This document shows positions 5,965 to 59,321 of a DNA stretch of 64,000 nucleotides, piece after piece. This stretch comes from Sinohyriopsis cumingii (lineage: Eukaryota; Mollusca; Bivalvia; Unionida; Unionidae): contig CM068839.1 in assembly GCA_028554795.2 (NCBI GenBank), positions 17,126,043-17,190,042 of the forward strand. The letters are read 5' to 3'. The notes beneath the pieces are model-generated. The model made no database searches, had not been told where the DNA came from, and saw nothing but the letters and a program-made list of their open reading frames with translations. Both the position numbers and the translations under genes were made by a program. The number at the start of each line of letters is the position of its first letter. The first letter of the stretch is position 1.

Positions 5965-6192
5965 GACCGGGGGGCTGAGTGGTTTAAGGCGCTCGCCTAA
6001 CATATCACTAGCATCTCATCTCTATCCGCATGGTTTCGAATCTTGGCTCGGCCAATGTGGGTATGTGGGAAAGTTCGCAAGTAGCTTCCTCGTAGGTAGG
6101 TCGTTCTTCCCATTGGTTTTCCAGTCTTCTCTTCCACCAGACCTTCTGGTCGCTATGTATTTTGTATTGAAAGTAATGGCGCTAAATCCACA
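5965..6192 (+). mobile_element. SINE-A copy (tRNA-derived), diverged
   Basis: The head has an A-box-like GCTGAGTGGTTTAAGGCGC and a B-box-like GGTTTCGAATCTTGG, as expected for a leucine/serine-type tRNA-derived SINE. The body matches the other SINE-A copies here: AATGTGGGTATGTGGGAAAG, then AGTAGCTTC and CTTCCACCA. The tail is short. A possible target-site duplication is TAAACAAAA at 5956-5964 and 6193-6201. The 105-codon open frame through it is not a gene. It is the most diverged of the five SINE-A copies, hence probably the oldest. Confidence 0.8.
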
Positions 6193-7598: not shown

Positions 7599-8043
7599 GA
7601 CTTTGTATAGAGCCTAATCTTTAGACGCTCTAAGCGCTTTACAACATTAGACAACACCTATAAGATAAGAAACAATAATATTATTACAAAAACAAACAAC
7701 ATGAAATTAGAAAAACATTAAAAAATAATATTAAAAAAACATGCTGAGAATATATCAGGTAGGAAACGCTATTAGGTCTTTAAGTTTGTTCTTGCAGTCG
7801 AAATAAGTGAGTTTTGAGAGCCCTCTTGAATGTGATCACTGTGTCTTTGTGTCTAAGTTCAGTAGGTAATTCATTCCACATTGCTGGACCCTGATACGCA
7901 AAAGAACGCTGTCCATATGACTTTGTTTTCATAGTGGGAATAATGAGTATACGATTGTCAGAAGAGGAGCTTAAGTATCTTGCTGGTGTGTACACATGGG
8001 TGAGGTCAGATAGGTATGTTGGACTAGAGTCCGACAGTGAAAT
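7557..8043 (-). mobile_element. LINE 3' end, CR1/L2/Rex1 type, 5'-truncated
   Basis: Reads right to left. The element enters at its 5'-truncated side near 8043, carries the end of the reverse-transcriptase ORF, then a 3' UTR with TTGTAAAGCGCTTAGAGCGT. It ends in an (ATT)n tail, seen on the plus strand as (AAT)n at 7561-7595. The same 3' region is present at 36.9-37.6 kb. Such 3' fragments with simple-repeat tails are characteristic of CR1/L2-group LINEs. No clear target-site duplication is visible, which is common in this group. Confidence 0.85.
7780..7995 (-). pseudogene. C-terminal end of LINE ORF2 (reverse transcriptase)
   Basis: A 71-codon open frame carries the conserved C-terminal block of CR1/L2/Rex1-group polymerases: YTPARYLSSSSD, then RSFAYQGPAMWNELPTELR, then FKRALKTHLF. 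This block follows the polymerase domain and contains no catalytic residues. The rest of ORF2 and any endonuclease are missing because of 5' truncation. The ATG is an internal methionine and not a real start. Confidence 0.85.
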
Positions 8044-8558
8044 GTATGCCGTTGGTCCATTGACAACAAAAAATCACAGTCATGTTTGACGCCATAGATA
8101 TGTGTCATTGGTCCATTGACGACAACCAATCACATTCTTGTTTGAAGCCGTTGGATGTATGCAATAGATTCATTGATGTCTTCAACCGTGGCCACGTCTG
8201 AATTTGTATCACCATAAGTCTAAAGTTAAATCGGGCTTCAAATGTTTACCTGATCAATTTAAATTTGACCTTTATTTAAGCCAATCAGATAGTTTTAGGA
8301 CGAAAACATCACTTTGGCCTTTTGTTTTGTTCTATAGACCATACTTGCTAGTCATACAGTACTTTCATGAACTATGGCGACAGAGGACGCAGAACACTCT
8401 CCTTGTGCAATCTGTCTGTCATTCTTGACTTTAGGATCAGTCTGCAAAACAAATCTTCACACTGAACATATTTTTCACCTTCAACATGGCAGCTTTCGAA
8501 CGGATTTCTTCGTGATTCAGCAGTAGCATCGAGAGTTAGATTATGCTTAACTACTGAA

Positions 8559-16530: not shown

Positions 16531-16866
16531 CTGTGTGTGCGTGTGTACGTGTAAGTGTATGTGCGGTTTTAATTTTTACGTGGTTTTGACAATTTCAGTC
16601 ATATCTCTACAGTGTAGCAGTTTATAGTGATAACAAGCACGGGTGCGTCAATATTTCGGTGGCATGTAGCATGATGTCCCACCTAGTCACTATATCCTGA
16701 TGCCAGGTCAACCAGTCCCAACACTAATCTCTTATTTCTAAGCAGCAAGCGAAGCGGCTGCAAGTAACATTCTTATAAATCTTTGGAAAGACTCGACCGG
16801 ATTTCGAACCCGCGACCTCCATCATCTGAAGCATACGCTCTAACCACTTAGGACACAAGAGCGGTC
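16531..16866 (-). mobile_element. SINE-B copy (tRNA-derived), minus strand
   Basis: Read on the minus strand it starts with a tRNA-like head (GACCGCTCTTG, an A box with a TTAGAGCG-like end, and a GGTTCGAA-type B box). It continues through the body shared by six copies here (GTTAGTGTTGGGACTGGT; ACATCATGCTACATG). It ends in an imperfect CA-rich tail, seen as TGTGTGTGCGTGTG at the left. A clear target-site duplication was not found. Confidence 0.85.
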
Positions 16867-16924
16867 TTACCGTTTTGTTTCCTACCAACTGCATACAGGT
16901 TTGAATCGTTCAATTAACGTACCG

Positions 16925-17265
16925 TGTCTTCCACGACCTTATTGAAAGACATTTGAAACCATATTGAAATGCCCCATACGACCTCATTGAAATATTCCAT
17001 TCGACCTTATTGAAATGCCTAATACCATCTTGTTGAAATACCCCATACGATCTCATTGAAATATTCCATAAGACCGTATTGAGAAAAATTCATATGACCA
17101 AAATTATATACCCCATACAACCTCGTGTAAATACCCCATACGACTATATTCAAATTCTCCATACGACATACGACTGTATTAAAATAACCCACACAACCAC
17201 ATTGAAATCTCCGTACAACATTATTTCATAAAACCTTATTGAAATACTCCCATAAGACATTTTTG
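16925..17265. repeat. 23-bp minisatellite, ~14 copies
   Basis: The unit is about ATTGAAATGCCCCATACGAC plus CTC or CTT, repeating every 23-24 bp with frequent substitutions and a few larger indels. It abuts the SINE-B copy on its left. Confidence 0.85.
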
Positions 17266-25785: not shown

Positions 25786-26060
25786 GACCGCTCCGGTGAC
25801 CTAGTGGTTAAAGCGTCCGCATTGCACGAGGGAGGTCGTGTGTTCAATCCCCGGACGAGTCATACAAAAGACATACAAAAATAGTACTAAAAGCTGCCTC
25901 GCTTGGCGTTCAGCATTCTTGGGGTTCAGCATTAAGAGGTTAGTGCTAGAAATGGTGGGCCTGGTGTCTGAATTATGTGAATGGGTGGGACATCATTCTA
26001 TGTCTTCGGCATGATGCACCAGTGCTAGACATCACTATAAACTGCTGCACTACTCACATT
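25786..26060 (+). mobile_element. SINE-B copy, 3' end missing or diverged
   Basis: The head GACCGCTCCGGTGACCTAGT, GGTTAAAGCGTCCGC and the B-box region GTGTTCAATCCCCGG are clear. The body runs GCCTCGCTTGGCGTTCAGCA to GTGCTAGACATCACTATAAA. A short internal duplication (TTCAGCATT twice near 25910-25935) is present. The last ~60 bp of the family (GCAGACATCGTAGCGATATG onward) and the CA tail are absent. Confidence 0.9.
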
Positions 26061-29013: not shown

Positions 29014-29055
<42 letters not shown>

Positions 29056-29363
29056 TCTGGATGTTTGATGTAGCTTTAACAAAATTTCAGTCATATCGCT
29101 ACCATGTATGCAGTCTGGCAAGTTATAATGATGTCTAGCACTGGGGCATCATGCCTCAGAAATGTAGCATGATGTCTCTCCCAGTCACATTATCCTGACA
29201 CCAGACCGACCATTCCTAACAATAACCACTTAACGCTGAACGCCAAGTGAGGCACCTGTTAGTAGCATTTTTGTAAGTCTTTGGTATGACTCGGCCGGGG
29301 AACGAATCCACGACCTCCCGCATGATACGCGGACGCTCTAACTAATAGGCCACCAGAGCGGTT
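29011..29363 (-). mobile_element. SINE-B copy whose tail is a (TG)n microsatellite
   Basis: Minus-strand SINE-B. From the left: (TG)n at about 29014-29053, then GTAGCTTTAACAAAATTTCA, the shared body, and the tRNA-like head ending CACCAGAGCGGT. An exact 8-bp duplication GATAACTC lies at 29003-29010 and 29364-29371. It encloses the (TG)n, so the microsatellite belongs to the element as its CA-type tail. Confidence 0.95.
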
Positions 29364-29660
29364 GATAACTCTTTGACATACCAAATAAAAATTATCATTT
29401 CGCTTCAGTTCTAAAGGAAGCAGAAATATAAAACGCCTTTAGTGAATAATAAAAGATCATGCAAGCTCAGTGGCATGTATGTTATCATTTGCCACTGACG
29501 CTAAGGAGCACTTTTAATGATATATTCATTCAACTCGACAAGGTTAACCACTTGGCTGTGTTTATGTCAAAACTGCAATGATGATTTAGAGAACGAAGCA
29601 CAAACTTAAAATTTCATTTGTTGCGAAACATGATTCGGAGATAATCTGTTCTATTGTTAA

Positions 29661-30072
29661 TAAAATATGTCAAATAGTCTCATCTGCAAACATTTTATAA
29701 TAGAATATGTCAAATAGGCTCATTTGCAAACATTTTATAATAGAATATGTCAAATAGTCTCATTTGCAAACATTTTATAAAAGAATATGTCAAATAGTCT
29801 CCTCTGCAAACATTTTATAATAGATTATGTCAAATAGTCTCATCTGCAAACATTTTATAATAGAATATGTCAAATAGTCTCATCTGCAAACATTTTATAA
29901 AAGAATATGTCAAATAGCCTCCTCTGCAAACATTTTATAATAGAATATGTCAAATAGTCTCATTTACAAACATTTTATAAAAGAATATGTCAAATAGTCT
30001 CATTTGCAAACATTTTATAATAGAATATGTCAAATAGTCTCATCTGCAAACATTTTATAATAGAATATGTCA
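29661..30072. repeat. 40-bp minisatellite, 10.3 copies
   Basis: Unit TAGAATATGTCAAATAGTCT plus CATCTGCAAACATTTTATAA, in exact 40-bp register from 29661 to 30060, followed by a 13-bp partial unit. Copies differ at about one to three sites. Units 4 and 7 share two linked variants (AAG start and CCTCTGC), so blocks of units have been copied together. There are no distinct spacers, so this is not a CRISPR array. Confidence 0.97.
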
Positions 30073-32877: not shown

Positions 32878-32924
<47 letters not shown>

Positions 32925-33228
32925 TTTATATTTTTAGCGTAGCTTTTAACAATTTTCCAGTCATGTCGCTACGATGTCTGCAGTGTGGCAGTTTAAAGTG
33001 ATATCTAGCACTGGGGTATCATGCCGCAGAGTTGTACATTGATGTCCCACCCAGTCACATTATCCTCACACCAGGCCAATCAGTCATAACACTAATTTCT
33101 TAATGATAAGCGCCTAGCGAGGCAGCTGTTAGTACCATTTTTAGAAGTCTTTGTTATGACTCAGCCGGGATTCGAACCCATGACCTCCAGCATCCGGGAC
33201 GGACGCTCTAACTACTAGGCCATCCGAA
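32878..33228 (-). mobile_element. SINE-B copy with (TG)n tail, minus strand
   Basis: (TG)n at 32878-32923 is followed by GCGTAGCTTTTAACAATTTT, the shared SINE-B body (CTAGCACTGGGGTATCATGC) and the tRNA-like head with B-box complement GGATTCGAACCCA. A possible short duplication is CATTCAA at 32871-32877 against CATTTCAA at the right, which differs by one base. Confidence 0.92.
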
Positions 33229-33587
33229 GCATTTCAACGGGAAATTGCTACAAACTTGTCAACAGGTACAATATATAGAACTTGAAAACCAATGCATACT
33301 TTATTTATAGCTCATTGCAATGTACAGTCATAGACCAACATTTAAGAGATATACATAACGTATCATATATAGTAGGTTTCTGTCATATGATGAGTTATGT
33401 GGTGTCGTAGTATTCGATTTTTTTAGCATTTTCGACTGCACAGTGCCATCTATCGTGCACTATCTTGTATAGATTACATAACCATTAAGTTAGCAGTTCT
33501 GCATCCCAGCTGATTTCGGTAAAATATTGGGATTGCTGACGATTATATTATTTCAAAAATGCACCCATGAATATCACTGTTTCTAAA

Positions 33588-33806
33588 TAATATCAGTACC
33601 ACAAGGTCTATGATAGAAGCTATACCTTCTTAAAATCGCTATCACTGTAACCAGTTTCCAAATAATATCAGTACCACAAGGTCTCTGATAGAAGCTATAC
33701 CTTCTTAAAATCGCTATCACTGTAACCAGTTTCCAAATAATATCAGTACCACAAGGTCTCTGATAGAAGCTATACCTTCTTAAAATCGCTATCACTGTAA
33801 CCATTT
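33588..33806. repeat. 75-bp near-perfect triplication
   Basis: Units start at 33588, 33663 and 33738, each beginning TAATATCAGTACCACAAGGT and ending with TAACCAGTTTCCAAA (the third is slightly cut). Only a few substitutions separate them. Because 75 is a multiple of three, the minus strand stays open for 73 codons as a 25-residue repeat. I see no reason to think it is translated. Confidence 0.97.
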
Positions 33807-35080
33807 TGTCTTCTAATAATGCACGGTTATGCTTTGCAAGAATTAGTCACATGATTATCGAATTTATCTAGAAACAAGAGATCGAATCTAGGGTAAACAA
33901 AATAAGAGTCAAAATGTAAAGCATTGACTGTTATTGTTTTATTGTGGCTTTAGCACTTGACCGGTGGTAATGTTTAAGCTTTGTTGTACACGATTTATTA
34001 ATTTTCACTGGAACACCGGGAGTTGCTTAAACAATCTAATGTCGACTTGTACTTTCATGATAATGTTGGTCGTCCATTCTCAACTACAATCACAGCACTA
34101 CTCCCCTTACACGGGTGGTTACAGATGCAGTTATATCATTCTCTCAAACAAGATTATGTTTAACGACATAGATGGTAGAATGAGTACCATGGAAAAGTGC
34201 ATTTCTCAAGTTGATTTACACCTTGTACAGCATTTACATCAACTTCCAAGCATTAGGACAAGCATGTGCCATCGTAACACTATTTGTTCAGTATTACCAC
34301 CTTATCAAAGTAATTCACCTTGCATAACACGGAATATAAATGGCGTCTGTTTATCGATCATTTTACACAGTCATCTGATTTTATCTGGAAAATGAATGCA
34401 TTTTAATATAAAACAGATTACATATGTAATATATTAAAGGTCAATATTTTTATTTACTTATTTGCCTATCACAAATTTTGAGACCCACAATACTATAGCA
34501 CCCTAGTAAAAGTACACAAAAGTAATAACCGTGAGTAAAGAGGGTTTCTATTTTGATCATGTTCTGCTTAAACCTGATCTCTATCAGTGTATAAAATAAG
34601 TAGTGAATGTGAACAATTTACATTGCGAAAGACTGGTTGGATACAAAGCCATAAATATATGGTATACCGCGACGTATTTGTTTTCGGTGGTGCGTACCAC
34701 GGTACTTTTTCTCTCTATGGGTACTTCGGTAGTTTCCGTAAGTAAGGAATGTGCAAAACCTCCCGAGGAATCTTCTTTTCATAAAATGGTTGTATCTGTC
34801 AAAACTTAAAGGTGAATATTACAAATAATATTTTGTATATGCAAATGTCATCTTTCATGGCTTATCTATCGTGCTGTACAAATTTTCAATTTGTGACCAT
34901 GTATCACACTTCTAAAATAATTCCGTATCGTACACTCATCCTGGACATACTTGTACAACTTTAAATATTAAATTAAGGTCCAATAGTAAAATATCTGGAA
35001 TGCTTTATTGTTATACATTTTAACATTCAAATTTAATTTCATGCACAGAATATCTGTGAATTTATTTTCAGACGCAGGTT
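33807..35080. other. Non-coding; holds the longest non-repeat open frame (33964-34395, +)
   Basis: The 143-codon plus-strand frame has no repeat in it, no recognisable domain, no signal peptide and no splice or poly(A) context. In sequence this AT-rich, one such frame per window is not very surprising. Near 34655-34740 there is a cluster of GGTATACCGCG and GTACCACGGTAC motifs similar to the possible transposon end at 36.75 kb. Confidence 0.4.
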
Positions 35081-36719: not shown

Positions 36720-37578
<859 letters not shown>

Positions 37579-40672: not shown

Positions 40673-40680
40673 AGATCGGA

Positions 40681-41012
40681 ACCGCTTCGGTGGCCTAGTG
40701 GTTAGAGCGTCCGCCTCGGATGCAGGAGGTCGTGGATTCCATCTCCGGTCGAGTCATACCAGAGACTTACAAAACTCGTACTCGCTTGGCTTTCAGCATT
40801 AATAGGTTAGTGTTAGGACTGGTCAACCTGGTGTCAGGATAATGTGACTGGGTGGTACCTCATGCTACATGTCTGCGGCATGATGCCCCAGTGCTAGACA
40901 TCACTATAAACTGCCACATTGCAGACATCGTAGCGATATGACTGAAAAATTGTTAAAGCTACGTTAAAAATCAAAATCACATCACACATCACATCACATC
41001 ACATCGCATCAT
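40681..41012 (+). mobile_element. SINE-B copy, full length
   Basis: The most complete SINE-B. The head reads CGCTTCGGTGGCCTAGTGGT then TAGAGCGTCCGCC, with the B-box region GTGGATTCCATCTCCGG. The body reaches GCAGACATCGTAGCGATATG and GTTAAAGCTACGTTAAAAAT. The tail is CATCACATCACAT, a CA-rich repeat. The 7-bp GATCGGA occurs at 40674-40680 and 41013-41019. The open frame across the head (GGLVVRASASDAGGRGF) is a well-known spurious translation of tRNA-derived repeats. Confidence 0.95.
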
Positions 41013-43482: not shown

Positions 43483-46400
43483 GTTAATATTTTATTAAGA
43501 TGGTCTTAGAGGAAAACGAATCTTCATGTTGACCAAGTTAATATTTTATTAAAATGGTCTTTGAGGAAATCAAGTATTCTTGTTGACCAAGTTTTTATTA
43601 TATCAATCCGGTTAATATTTTATTGATACGGTCTAGGAGGAAAGTGTCTTCATAATTGCCAAGTTATGACTTATTAAGGCGGTCTTGAAGGAAAATGAGA
43701 CTTCTTGTTGACCATGTTAATATTTTATTGATACGGTCTAGGAGGAAAGTGGCTTCATAACTACCACGTTATGACATATTAAGAGGGTCTTGAAGGAAAA
43801 TGAGACTTCTTGTTGACCATGTTAATATTTTATTCAAACTGTCCTGGAGGAAACTCTCTTCATAATTACCAAGCTATGACTTATTAATACGGTCTAAGAA
43901 GAAAGAGTCTTCATAATTACCAAGTTATAACATCGTAAGAGGATCGTGGAGGAAAGCGAGACTTTTTGTTGACCATGTTAATATTTTATTTATACGGTCT
44001 AGGAGGAAAGTGTCCTCATAATTACCAAGTTATGACGTATTAAGAGGGTCATGGAGGAAAACGAGACATCTTGTTGACCATGTTAATATTTTATTCAAAC
44101 TGTCATGGAGGAAAACAAAACTTCTTGTTTACCATGTTAATATTTTATTACTACGGTCTAGGAGGAACGTCTCATCATAATTATCAAGTTATGACGTATT
44201 AAGAGGGTCATGGAGGAAAACGAGACATCTTGTTGACCATGTTAATATTTTACGAATACGGTCTAGGAGGAAAGTGCCTTCATAATTACCAAGTAATGAC
44301 TTTTTAAGAGGATCTTGGATGAAAACTAGACTTCTTGTTGACCATGTTAATACTTTATTTAAACTGTCCTGGAGGAAAACGAGATTTCTTGTTGATCATG
44401 TTAATATTTTATTCAAACTGTCCTGGAGGAAAGTCTGTTCATACTTACCAAGTTATGACTTTTTAATACGGTCTAGGAGGAAGATGTCTTCATAATTTCT
44501 AAGTTATGACTTATTAAGCGGGTCTTGGATTTAAACGAGAGTTCTTTCTTGTTAACGATGTTAATATTTCATTCAAACTGTCCAGGAGGTAAACAAGACT
44601 TCTTGTTGACCATGTTGTTTTTGTTGTTGTTGTTGTTGTTGTTGTTCTAGGGTTTAACGCCATTTCTCAGCACAAGATAGGCTATACATGGCGGCCAGTA
44701 TAACTGGTGGAGGAAGAATCCTGGAAAACCCAGGGAAGAACCAACAACCCACGAGAAGCTACTGCCAGGCTTTCCCACGTACCCACGCTAGCCGAGCCTT
44801 GGACTCGAACACACGCAGACAGAGGTGAGATGGCAGTGATCCGGAACGGTGAGCGCATTAGACCACTCGGCCACACAGAGCCCCTATTGACCATGTTAAT
44901 ATTTTATTCAAACTGTCCTGGAGGAAAACCACACTTCTTGATGACCATGTTAATAATTCATTCAAACTGTCCAGGAGGTAAACGAGACTTCTTATTGAAC
45001 ATGTTAATATTTTATTGACACGGTGTATGAGGAAAGTGTCTTCATAATTACCAAGTTATGACTTATTAAGAGGGTCTTGGAGAAAAACGAGACTTCTTGT
45101 TGACCATGTTTATATTTAAGTCAAACTGTCCTGGATGTAAACAAGACTTCTTGTTGATCATGTTAATATTTTATTACTACGGTCTAGGAGGAAAATCTCT
45201 TCATAATTACCAAGTTATAAGTGATTAAGAGGGTCTTGGACGAACACAATACTTCTTGTTGACCATGTTAATATTTTATTAATACGGTCTTTGAGGAAAG
45301 TGTCTTCATAATTACCAAGTTATGACTTTTTAAGAGGATCTCGGAGGAAAACGAGACTTCTTGTTGACCATGTTAATATTTTATTCAGACTGTCCTGGAG
45401 GTAAACGAGATTTCTTGTTAACCATGTTAATATTTAATTCAAACTGTCCTGGAGGAAAGTCTCATCATAATTATCAAGTAAAGACTTTTTAATACGGTCT
45501 AGGAGGAAATTGTCTTCATAATCACTTATGACTTATTAAGAGTCTTGGAGGAAAACGAGACTTCTTGTTGACCATGTTAATATTTTTTATACGGTCTAAG
45601 AGGAAAGTGTTTTCAATATTTCTAAGTTATGACTTATTAAGCGGGTCTTGGATGAAAACGAGAGTTATTTCTTGTTGACCATGTTAATATTTTATTCAAA
45701 CTGTCTTGGAGGAAAACAAGACTTCTTGTTGACCATGTTAATATTTCATTCAAACTGTCCTGGAGGAAAACAAGACTTCTTGTTGACCATGTTAATATTT
45801 CATTCAAACTGTCCTGGAGGAAAACAAGACTTCTTGTTGACCATGTTAATATTTTATTACTACGGTCTAGGAGGAAAGTCTCTTCATAATTACCAAGTTA
45901 TGACTTTTTAATACGGTCTAGGAGGAAAGTGTCTTCATAATCACCAAGTTATGACATATTAAGAGGGTCTTGGAGGAAAACAAGACTTCTTGTTGACCAT
46001 GTTAATATTTTATTGATACTGTCAGGAGTAAAGTGTCTTCATAATTACCAAGTTATTACTTATTAAGAGGTATTGGAGTAAAACGAGAATTCTTGTTGAC
46101 CATGTTAACATTTTATTGATAAGGTCTAGGAGGAAAGTTTCTTCATAATTACCAAGTTATGACTTATTAAGAGGATCTTGGAGGACAACGAGACTTCTTG
46201 TTGACCATGTTAATATTTTATTACTACGGTCTAGGAGGAAAGTGTCTTCATAATTACTAAGTTATGAATTATTAAGAGGGTCTTGGAGGAAATGAGACTT
46301 CTTGTTGGTTAAGTTTATATTTTATTAAGACGGTCTTGGAGAAAACGAGACTTCATGTTAACCAAGTTAATATTATATTAATCGGGTTTTGAAGGAAAAT

Positions 46401-46488
46401 ATGTTTCCATTTTGGCCACGTTAATATTTTATTAAGACGGTCTTGGAGGAAAAGAAGTTTTCATTTTAACCAAGTTAATATTTTAATA
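43483..46488. repeat. ~3 kb satellite-like array with higher-order A/B structure
   Basis: Monomers of ~52 bp share GGTCT(A/T)GGAGGAAA. Type A continues TCTTCATAATTACCAAGTTA then TGACTTATTAAGAG. Type B continues ACTTCTTGTTGACCATGTTA then ATATTTTATTGATAC. Type C is B-like but has CAAACTGTCCTGGAGGAAAA at the junction. Across most of the array A and B alternate as a ~104-bp dimer. Runs of near-identical C monomers (~54 bp, about 45690-45850) are mixed in. The first two or three and last three monomers are simple forms combining A and B features (CCAAGTTAATATTTTATTAA). Open frames of 87 and 103 codons inside are products of the 54-bp register. A SINE-A interrupts the array. Confidence 0.97.
44617..44886 (-). 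mobile_element. SINE-A copy inserted in the satellite array
   Basis: Starts with the tail complement (TTG)n at about 44621-44645, then GGGTTTAACGCCATTTCTCA and GCTATACATGGCGGCCAGTA, and ends with CCACTCGGCCACACAGAGCC. It is flanked by exact 11-bp copies of TTGACCATGTT at 44606-44616 and 44887-44897. That word is normally single per type B/C monomer, so this is a true target-site duplication in a monomer. Frames on both strands (103 and 70 codons) are spurious. Confidence 0.97.
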
Positions 46489-47600
46489 GAAAACAAATCG
46501 AGAAAAATTAAGGTTTGCTTTTATGAAATAATTTACAGACAAATATACGAATGCCATAAACATGGAAAAAAAACTACCAATTTGCTTTTACGAAATGTTT
46601 TATGGACATACATTAACGATTGCTACAAATGTTTTTTTTTAACAGTGCCTAATAATATGTTACTTGTAAGAACTGAGATTAAAATACACAAATAATACCA
46701 TTCATATGTCCAAAGCCTACTATGTCATATCATCCAGGTAATACTTGATTGAATGATTGTAATTAAGGATCGTCCATGTATTATGAGAACAATCATTGTA
46801 ACACTTCACGTATAACTGTTTTCAGTATTTGATATCTAAGGATTTCTACCTTGAAACAATTGAAGTTTTTATAATGGGTGTTTTTATAAATCTTTATGTT
46901 AGTTTTACATAGTTGTTTTTCATAAATCTCTTTACTTAGGTGTTTCATGGTTGTTATTTGTTCTGGGATTGTGTTGGAACAGTTTTAAAACATATTGATA
47001 TTTGATAATATTTACCCGGGCCAAATCAAAATTGCACTATAAATTAAAAATGTTCAAATTTCGCCAAAGCACTGACGGTATGCATGCGGTTCACATTCGT
47101 CATCAGTATTGTGTGTCGACTTCATTTTCAACACAATAGCCTAAACCCCAGGTGTTCTACAACATTAGGTCGATAACTATAGATTCATATGGATTGAGAA
47201 TGTGAGCTTCAGCTCTACCTGACGGATTGATATTTCTCATTATTACTGTTACAACTGAGTTCCGTGAAACATTTCCTTGGTAAGATGCAGCTTTGGAAAA
47301 TGCATTGATTTATGTAACATTCATCCAGGATAGATGTTTTCTCTTCTGATACAATTTCTTAAGAAATTCATATATACAATAAGAAACTAGTACAAGTAAC
47401 TTGATCAGTGTATGTAGATATCTGACTGATTAATCCATGACAAAGTGAACAGCTTGCGTTGTGACAAAGAAACTGAAGAACGATTTTCGGTCATACAATT
47501 AATAAAGTATTGACTGGTACGCCGAATAAGCACATTGACTCTAATGTACACACGGTTCATTTGTGGATGTGGAAGCCGACTAGCTTAGTATAGTAGTGAA
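46489..47600. other. Non-coding, no recognised feature
   Basis: Unique AT-rich sequence between the satellite array and a promoter-like patch. No open frame or repeat of note. Confidence 0.5.
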
Positions 47601-51890: not shown

Positions 51891-51956
51891 GGAATTATAC
51901 AAATGATAATGTTCATCTAAGTAAACTGCGTTGTATTTTATCATGTAAAATGAACA

Positions 51957-52383
51957 CAGCTACAAGTAGATAATCTGTTTAACAAAACGATACAAAGCGG
52001 GACGAAACGCTTATCACTGTTACACGTAGATAATCTGTGTAACAAGACGAGACCATGTGGGAAAACGCTTAGCACAGTTACAAGTAGATACTCTGTGTAA
52101 CAAGACGAGACCGCGTGGGATGAAACGCTTAGCACTGTTACAAGTAGATACTCTGTGTAACAAGACGAGACCAAGTGGGATGAAACGCTTAGCACTGTTA
52201 CAAGTAGATACTCTGTGTAACAAGACGAGACCAAGTGGGATGAAACGCTTAGCACTGTTACAAGTAGATACTCTGTGTAACAAGACAAGACCAAGTGGGA
52301 TGAAACGCTTAGCACTGTTACAAGTAGATACTCTGTGTAACAAGACGAGACCAAGTGGAATGAAACGTTTAGCACAGTGACGT
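51957..52383. repeat. 60-bp minisatellite, ~7 copies, open in several frames
   Basis: The unit contains TACAAGTAGATACTCTGTGT, AACAAGACGAGACCAAGTGG and GATGAAACGCTTAGCACTGT, in exact 60-bp register. The middle four or five copies differ by only one to three bases and the edge copies are more diverged. Since 60 is a multiple of three and the unit has no stop in three of the frames, frames of 107, 107 and 148 codons exist on both strands. Three mutually exclusive frames argue for none being selected. Confidence 0.97.
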
Positions 52384-58439: not shown

Positions 58440-58925
58440 TCTTATTTAATCTCTAGTGTGAGGATTGAAAACAGATACCATCTAATCTCTGTTTAGACGA
58501 TTTCATTACACACTGTATAGAGATACCTTTAATCTCTAGTGAGATGGTTCACGTTCACCCTGAAAAGAGATATTCTTTAATCTCTAGTGAAATGGTTCAT
58601 GTACACACTGTAAAGAGATAATCTTTAATCTCAAGTGAGATGGCTCAAGGCTTCCCTGTAACGAGATAATATTTAATCTCTAGTGAGATGGCTCAAGGCC
58701 TCCCTGTAACGAGATACTATGTAATCTCTAGTGAGATGGCTCAAGGCCTCCCTGTAACGAGATACTCTTTTCTCTATAGTGAGATGGTTCAAGGCCTCCC
58801 TGTAACTAGATACTATTTAATCTCTAGTGAGGTGGTCGAAGTACACCCTGCAGATGCCCTTCACTCTCTAATGAGATGGTCAAAGTACACCCTGTAGAGA
58901 TATAAGCTTTAACCTCTAGTGTGTA
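58440..58925. repeat. 48-bp minisatellite, ~10 copies
   Basis: The unit contains AATCTCTAGTGAGATGGCTC then AAGGCCTCCCTGTAACGAGA and TACT. The landmark falls at 58531, 58579, 58627, 58675 and 58723, an exact 48-bp period. The central copies are most alike and the flanks are diverged. Confidence 0.95.
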
Positions 58926-58998: not shown

Positions 58999-59321
58999 CG
59001 GGCCTCTCTGGTGGCCTAAGTGGCTAGAGCGGGATGTCTCGAGGCATCAGACCCTGACCGAGTCATAACAAAGACTTATTAAAATGGTAATAGCTGCTGT
59101 ATCGCTTGGCACTCGGCATTAAGAAGTTAGTGTTATGACTTGTTGGCCTGGTGTCAGAATAATATGACTGGTAGGGACATCATGCTACATGTCTGCGACA
59201 TAATGCCCCATTACTAGATATCATTACAAACTGTCACACTGCAGACATCGTAGTGATATGATTGGAAAATTGTTAAAGCTTCGTTAAAAATCCAAATTTC
59301 TCTCTCACACACACACGCGAA
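58999..59321 (+). mobile_element. SINE-B copy with CA tail and target-site duplication
   Basis: Head GGGCCTCTCTGGTGGCCTAA with TGGCTAGAGCG. About 15 bp is missing in the B-box region. The body is complete to GCAGACATCGTAGTGATATG and GTTAAAGCTTCGTTAAAAAT, and the tail is CTCTCTCACACACACACGCG. Exact 8-bp TCTTCAAT copies lie at 58991-58998 and 59322-59329. Confidence 0.95.

Follow-up and report, generated by a model that had tools for sequence, protein, structure and literature searches.

Tandem arrays have well-described relatives. For satellites, a review describes array centres as better homogenised than array ends (PMC5615363). A second review, PMC8122249, names Smith's model of unequal exchange and places monomeric alpha-satellite at the edges of centromeres. 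In a mollusc, the Pacific oyster, dispersed satellite-like arrays are carried by Cg_HINE elements; according to PMC7492417, their monomers measure 138-181 bp, in a screen of 100-500 bp units only.

Here we analyse an array of ~52-bp monomers within a window of 64,000 nucleotides from Sinohyriopsis cumingii, the window being the whole stretch of DNA studied. The array resembles minisatellites and short satellite-like arrays in (i) its head-to-tail units of tens of bases, (ii) the apparent local spread of a variant, (iii) its hybrid monomers and (iv) its less homogenised ends. It differs from them in nothing basic, the loose alternation of two unit types being a detail of this locus. With alpha-satellite higher-order repeats, as presented in PMC8122249, it shares alternating unit types inside and less ordered edge units, whereas the present array is 3 kb long, has units of 51-54 bp in loose order and contains repeated blocks that are no more alike than other copies of the same type. 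Like the Cg_HINE arrays, it is a short satellite-like array among other DNA. A Helentron-type element would carry subterminal inverted repeats and a 3′ palindrome at fixed flanks, and would recur in many copies with the same flanks; here, no inverted repeat in the flanks exceeds resampled sequence, and the window holds one copy. We consider it likely that the locus is a local non-coding minisatellite in which unequal exchange spread one unit type, X, beside another, Y, in the interior and left old units at the ends.

Extent and context of the array

TRF and monomer cutting delimit a non-coding array of ~3.0 kb at 43483-46490, with 51 full and 2 partial monomers of 47-57 bp arranged head to tail, as expected of a tandem array with units of ten to a hundred bases. 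The ~52-bp monomer array of ~3 kb reported by the first-pass annotation is real. Its parts are as follows, with unit types X and Y as defined below.

43483..46490, + strand (as read in the first pass, without coding sense): whole tandem array, from TRF, monomer cutting and monomer profile
43483..43610, +: left edge, m01 and m02 (full edge monomers, 54 bp) and m03 (20 bp, truncated), from monomer cutting and trees
43611..46312, +: interior, 46 monomers with X and Y loosely alternating (20 X, 26 Y) and the SINE-like insert within
44606..44616, +: left copy of the target-site duplication TTGACCATGTT, 11 bp, read from the sequence
44617..44886, −: SINE-like repeat, 270 bp, tRNA-like head near 44885 and (AAC)n tail at 44617
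44887..44897, +: right copy of the target-site duplication TTGACCATGTT, 11 bp, read from the sequence
46261..46312, +: m49, the final Y monomer, whose unit joins edge units m02 and m50 in an open fork
46313..46490, +: right edge, m50-m52 (full edge monomers) and m53 (17 bp, partial), from monomer cutting and trees

The window has an A+T content of 66% and contains many tandem repeats (58 TRF rows, in part overlapping one another), a feature that the first pass did not mention. The monomer profile has no credible match elsewhere in the window (four matches, E 1.2-7), and within the window we found no second copy of the array or of its flanks. In public prokaryote collections there was one 22-base match to a bacterial contig, a match by chance, and the BLAST matches listed give no further place on that contig; two patterns tried against viral contigs gave no match. 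Neither collection is of animals, so the absence of copies there says little. Two pairs of monomers are identical (m39 and m40; m12 and m15). Directly right of the array, at 46513-46640, lies a degenerate direct repeat of ~65 bp whose two copies begin TTTGCTTTTA. A dispersed repeat of ~440 bp occurs at 7602-8046 and 36908-37342 (87% identical), with a microsatellite close to or touching each copy.

The window contains 25 stop-to-stop ORFs of at least 100 aa, none of them confined to the repeats. Two touch the array, one running through the insert (44704-45018) and the other over the right edge (46393-46695). Because the repeats alone hold no such frame, though 51 and 54 are multiples of three, we regard the array as not coding. 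A structured RNA or tRNA reading was rejected, since no Rfam family at gathering score and no ARAGORN tRNA (bacterial code) is present in the window. The core GGTCTxGGAGGAAA recurs in most units, as it would in an element under selection, e.g., a non-coding array with a regulatory or structural role. We find such an element hardly credible: the array is neither coding nor matched by an Rfam family at gathering score, it has tolerated an insert inside and indels in several monomers, and the location of exchange could explain why the core is kept. Most likely, the array has no function of its own.

Monomer types in the initial cut

The first-pass annotation had cut the array into units beginning GTTA and had distinguished types A, B and C. 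In this cut, types assigned by hand comprise 13 A, 16 B, 10 C, 5 edge, 4 D and 3 F monomers, where D and F are recombinant-looking sets. A first tree of all 51 rows requires two changes for A, with D and F nested inside the A clade. In a second tree, from which D and F were dropped (44/51 rows), A, B and C each form one side of a branch (96/97, 97/90 and 96/90), and the five edge monomers fall outside the A, B and C clades, m50 being weakly placed with B+C (80/77). The edge rows of this cut are not proven to be one clade (AU p 0.456). Monomer m22 was cut one base too long at its end, in a column that the trees omit. Identity between types amounts to 0.587 for A-B, 0.662 for A-C and 0.718 for B-C; edge monomers are 0.728 identical to A, 0.692 to B, 0.735 to C and 0.789 to each other. 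The consensus sequences of A and B are unlike at 17 columns; of these, the edge consensus matches A at 8, B at 8 and neither at 1.

Re-cutting within the conserved core

Linkage analysis of the cut points, carried out with no shuffle control, gives 0.43 bit between the tail of one monomer and the head of the next vs 0.16 bit from head to tail within one monomer. Mean within-unit linkage peaks at 0.329 bit with a cut in column 24, vs 0.251 bit with the first-pass cut, and the twelve best cuts (columns 20-28 and 31-33; 0.315-0.329 bit) coincide with the conserved core. We cut at column 26, which reduces the units to two types, X with 51 bp (20 copies) and Y with 54 bp (26 copies). Types A, B, C and D are the junctions YX, XY, YY and XX, respectively, and F is a Y>X junction with a C-type middle.

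A tree of 50 of the 51 units (incomplete m52 dropped, incomplete m02 retained) separates X from Y plus edge with support of 98/95; neither Y by itself (56/54) nor the edge units (AU p 0.249) are supported as a clade. Identity is 0.84 for both X-X and Y-Y and 0.594 for X-Y. Complete edge units are 0.709-0.788 identical to Y, 0.646-0.676 to X and 0.67-0.80 among themselves, and at the 19 columns where X and Y differ, their consensus follows Y in 12 and X in 6. Compared with X and with Y, the edge units look less derived; they nevertheless lie on the Y side.

The re-cut changes how the trees are to be read. The separation of A from B with the edges outside, as the first pass had expected, is recovered in its own cut without D and F; the position of the edges as basal to both types is true in that cut only, and we rejected it because the core cut joins them to Y. 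Likewise, A, B and C are supported clades in the first cut without D and F, and reduce to two types in the second. The mixture of A and B features ascribed to the outermost monomers is visible in the 17 columns above and gives way to Y-likeness after the core cut: 'combining A and B features' means Y beside Y, without X. Because units were cut at a conspicuous motif and not at the best linkage, two unit types were seen as five and the edges as ancestral hybrids.

Order of units in the interior

The runs test, the comparison of arrays and the inverted-repeat test of the flanks used a copy of the array without the insert and also without five junction bases (ACCAT). The 46 interior units follow the order XYXYXXYXYYXYXYYXXYYYYXYYXYXYYXXYXYYYYXXYXYXYXY, with 31 switches, 10 YY and 4 XX. 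This order is non-random: we observed 32 X/Y runs vs 23.6 ± 3.3 expected (20,000 shuffles, p = 0.0071), and identity at lags 5, 14 and 16 exceeds that in shuffles (reached by 26, 2 and 73 of 5000). At lag 2, mean identity does not clearly exceed that of shuffles, 862/5000 of which reach it. The alternation of A and B as a ~104-bp unit, as first described, is confirmed in so far as X and Y alternate above chance (p = 0.007); a strict AB dimer is rejected on the 10 YY and 4 XX and on the result at lag 2.

In shuffles that preserve neighbour pairs, the type word ABAB(C)FDB, picked after seeing it, is found three times (p = 0.011), the longest type word that recurs has a length of 11 (p = 0.039), and type matching over lags 6-24 is unexceptional even at its best (p = 0.15). 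Type-preserving shuffles yield no clear identity excess at any of 30 lags (lowest count 528/3000, at lag 20). Paired blocks show identities of 0.864, 0.843 and 0.847 vs 0.867, 0.864 and 0.864 for same-type pairs, i.e., no excess in bases. Successive blocks are therefore no more alike than same-type monomers elsewhere, whereas in a true higher-order repeat they would have to be more alike, and higher-order blocks as recent duplications are rejected for the same lack of excess identity. The clean higher-order dimer of the first-pass annotation is not supported, given this loose order and the absence of a clear identity excess in blocks or at the 30 lags.

Edges versus interior

The 5 full edge monomers have a nearest-relative identity of 0.844, the 46 interior monomers one of 0.928 (p = 0.0001 in 20,000 random draws); having few relatives of their own type by itself lowers the value for edge monomers. 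Y units increasingly resemble the edge consensus (from m01, m50 and m51) as the ends are approached (Spearman -0.47, p = 0.011), and X units show no gradient towards the edge consensus (Spearman -0.03, p = 0.46). The interior is thus better homogenised than the ends, in line with the first pass. The truncated m03 on the left (43591-43610) and m51 on the right (46366-46385) have three uncommon bases of 20 in common, hinting that both edges stem from one ancestral unit order.

For comparison, six other arrays of the window were hand-picked from the TRF list and scored against the TRF consensus, a reference biased towards the most frequent copies. Two of the six show clear edge decay and two weak decay; in one it is unclear and in one absent:

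557-1276: 35-bp unit, clear one-sided decay (0.91-1.00, then 0.41-0.69)
58466-58921: clear two-sided edge decay
51955-52381: weak edge decay
33556-33807: weak edge decay
16933-17225: edge decay unclear
29653-30072: no edge decay

In the array at 557-1276, eight nearly identical copies are followed by about a dozen strongly diverged ones.

An X-Y identity of 0.59 between types that are each 0.84 identical internally, together with less homogenised edge units, could also mean that a satellite family abundant at other sites, e.g., at centromeres, has a copy or remnant here, the XY interior having come from that family and recombined into a small Y-type array. This origin seems to us decidedly improbable: the interior keeps the register of the edges, Y units pass gradually into edge units (m49 included), nothing related occurs in the rest of the window, and the CENP-B-box-like sites with at most 2 mismatches (5 on the + strand, 0 on the − strand) are counts with no chance expectation beside them.

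Insert, age and neighbouring repeats

The insert, which the first pass did not mention, splits the array and is flanked by a target-site duplication. Its tRNA-like head, its simple tail and the duplication lead us to call it a SINE, a name given by our own reading and not by a repeat library. Its family has 5 copies in the window. The insert is 82.6-86.9% identical to three of them, which are 89.3-92.0% identical to each other; the fifth copy, at 5967, is more diverged still (72.8-76.7% to two of the three). The divergence of the insert could stem from subfamilies and gives no date. The identity of 0.84 within X and within Y speaks against a young array. The suggestion of a 'young' satellite is accordingly disfavoured by within-type identity and by the divergence of the insert from three relatives, the latter being open to explanation by subfamilies.

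A second SINE-like family has six copies in the window, most with TG-rich ends:

16532-16867
25787-26059
29015-29363
32884-33230
40680-41003
59052-59316

Four of the six tRNA-like ends lie at most 350 bp from a minisatellite (66, 290, 326 and 131 bp; the others 904 and 8560), a proximity reached in 0/20,000 random placements in a test conceived after seeing the pattern. Among the 6 copies, no match extends beyond the SINE, and a composite element of this family with a minisatellite was rejected on that account.

The array could further belong to a non-autonomous mobile element, Helentron-type and Cg_HINE-like, as its central repeat block, with ends and interior copied from elsewhere. The dispersed oyster arrays offer a molluscan precedent, and according to PMC7492417 the first repeat of Cg_HINE is preceded, at a distance of 10-500 bp in the left flank, by a microsatellite-like segment; here a GATA/GACA-rich stretch, degenerate in sequence, is present ~530 bp to the left of the array. 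The difference in unit length says little, since the Cg_HINE screen was limited to 100-500 bp. The best inverted repeats, however, are not above those of resampled sequence: fractions of 0.09 (left flank, 600 bp), 0.24 (between flanks) and 0.63 (right flank, 200 bp) of 100 resamples reached the observed best, in a single copy from which element ends cannot be defined. Together with the lack of a second copy of array or flanks within the window, this makes a mobile element unlikely.

Discussion

We infer that the minisatellite formed by local exchange. An ancestral Y-like unit of ~54 bp would have been tandemly repeated, and variant X (51 bp), whose changes extend from a monomer's tail into the following monomer's head, would have arisen. 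Out-of-register exchange, by unequal crossing-over or gene conversion between sister copies, may then have amplified X-next-to-Y blocks in the interior, with some XX and YY junctions remaining. Exchange would be weakest at the ends and reach them least, so that the two or three terminal units at either end have remained X-free, Y-like and poorly homogenised. The SINE-like repeat presumably inserted later, at a YY junction. Out-of-register exchange accounts for the type structure, the loose alternation, the hybrid monomers (D and F) and the gradient.

We simulated exchange under a clocklike model with substitutions only, in the first-pass phase only, at 8 parameter sets (480 runs started, 463 kept). 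The observed excess of left-right over edge-interior identity in that phase, 0.078, was reached in 0/463 simulated runs, which is evidence against the simplest form of unequal exchange. In the unit phase, edge-edge identity is similar to edge-Y identity, so the left-right excess mostly goes. The repeated type blocks have no excess base identity and do not show block duplication directly, and unequal crossing-over is indistinguishable here from slippage or conversion.

A half-finished replacement, in which X invaded an old Y array from its middle through recombination with some other array or element and halted with the old ends intact, appears improbable. If it were true, one short locus would display the first step from a monomeric array to a dimeric satellite.

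The locus is a real but ordinary minisatellite, partly misread owing to the cut. It exposes a practical trap, in which cutting at a conspicuous motif made plain edge copies resemble ancestral hybrids. It also offers a small, fully readable example of how a variant can extend through a tandem array while the ends are spared.
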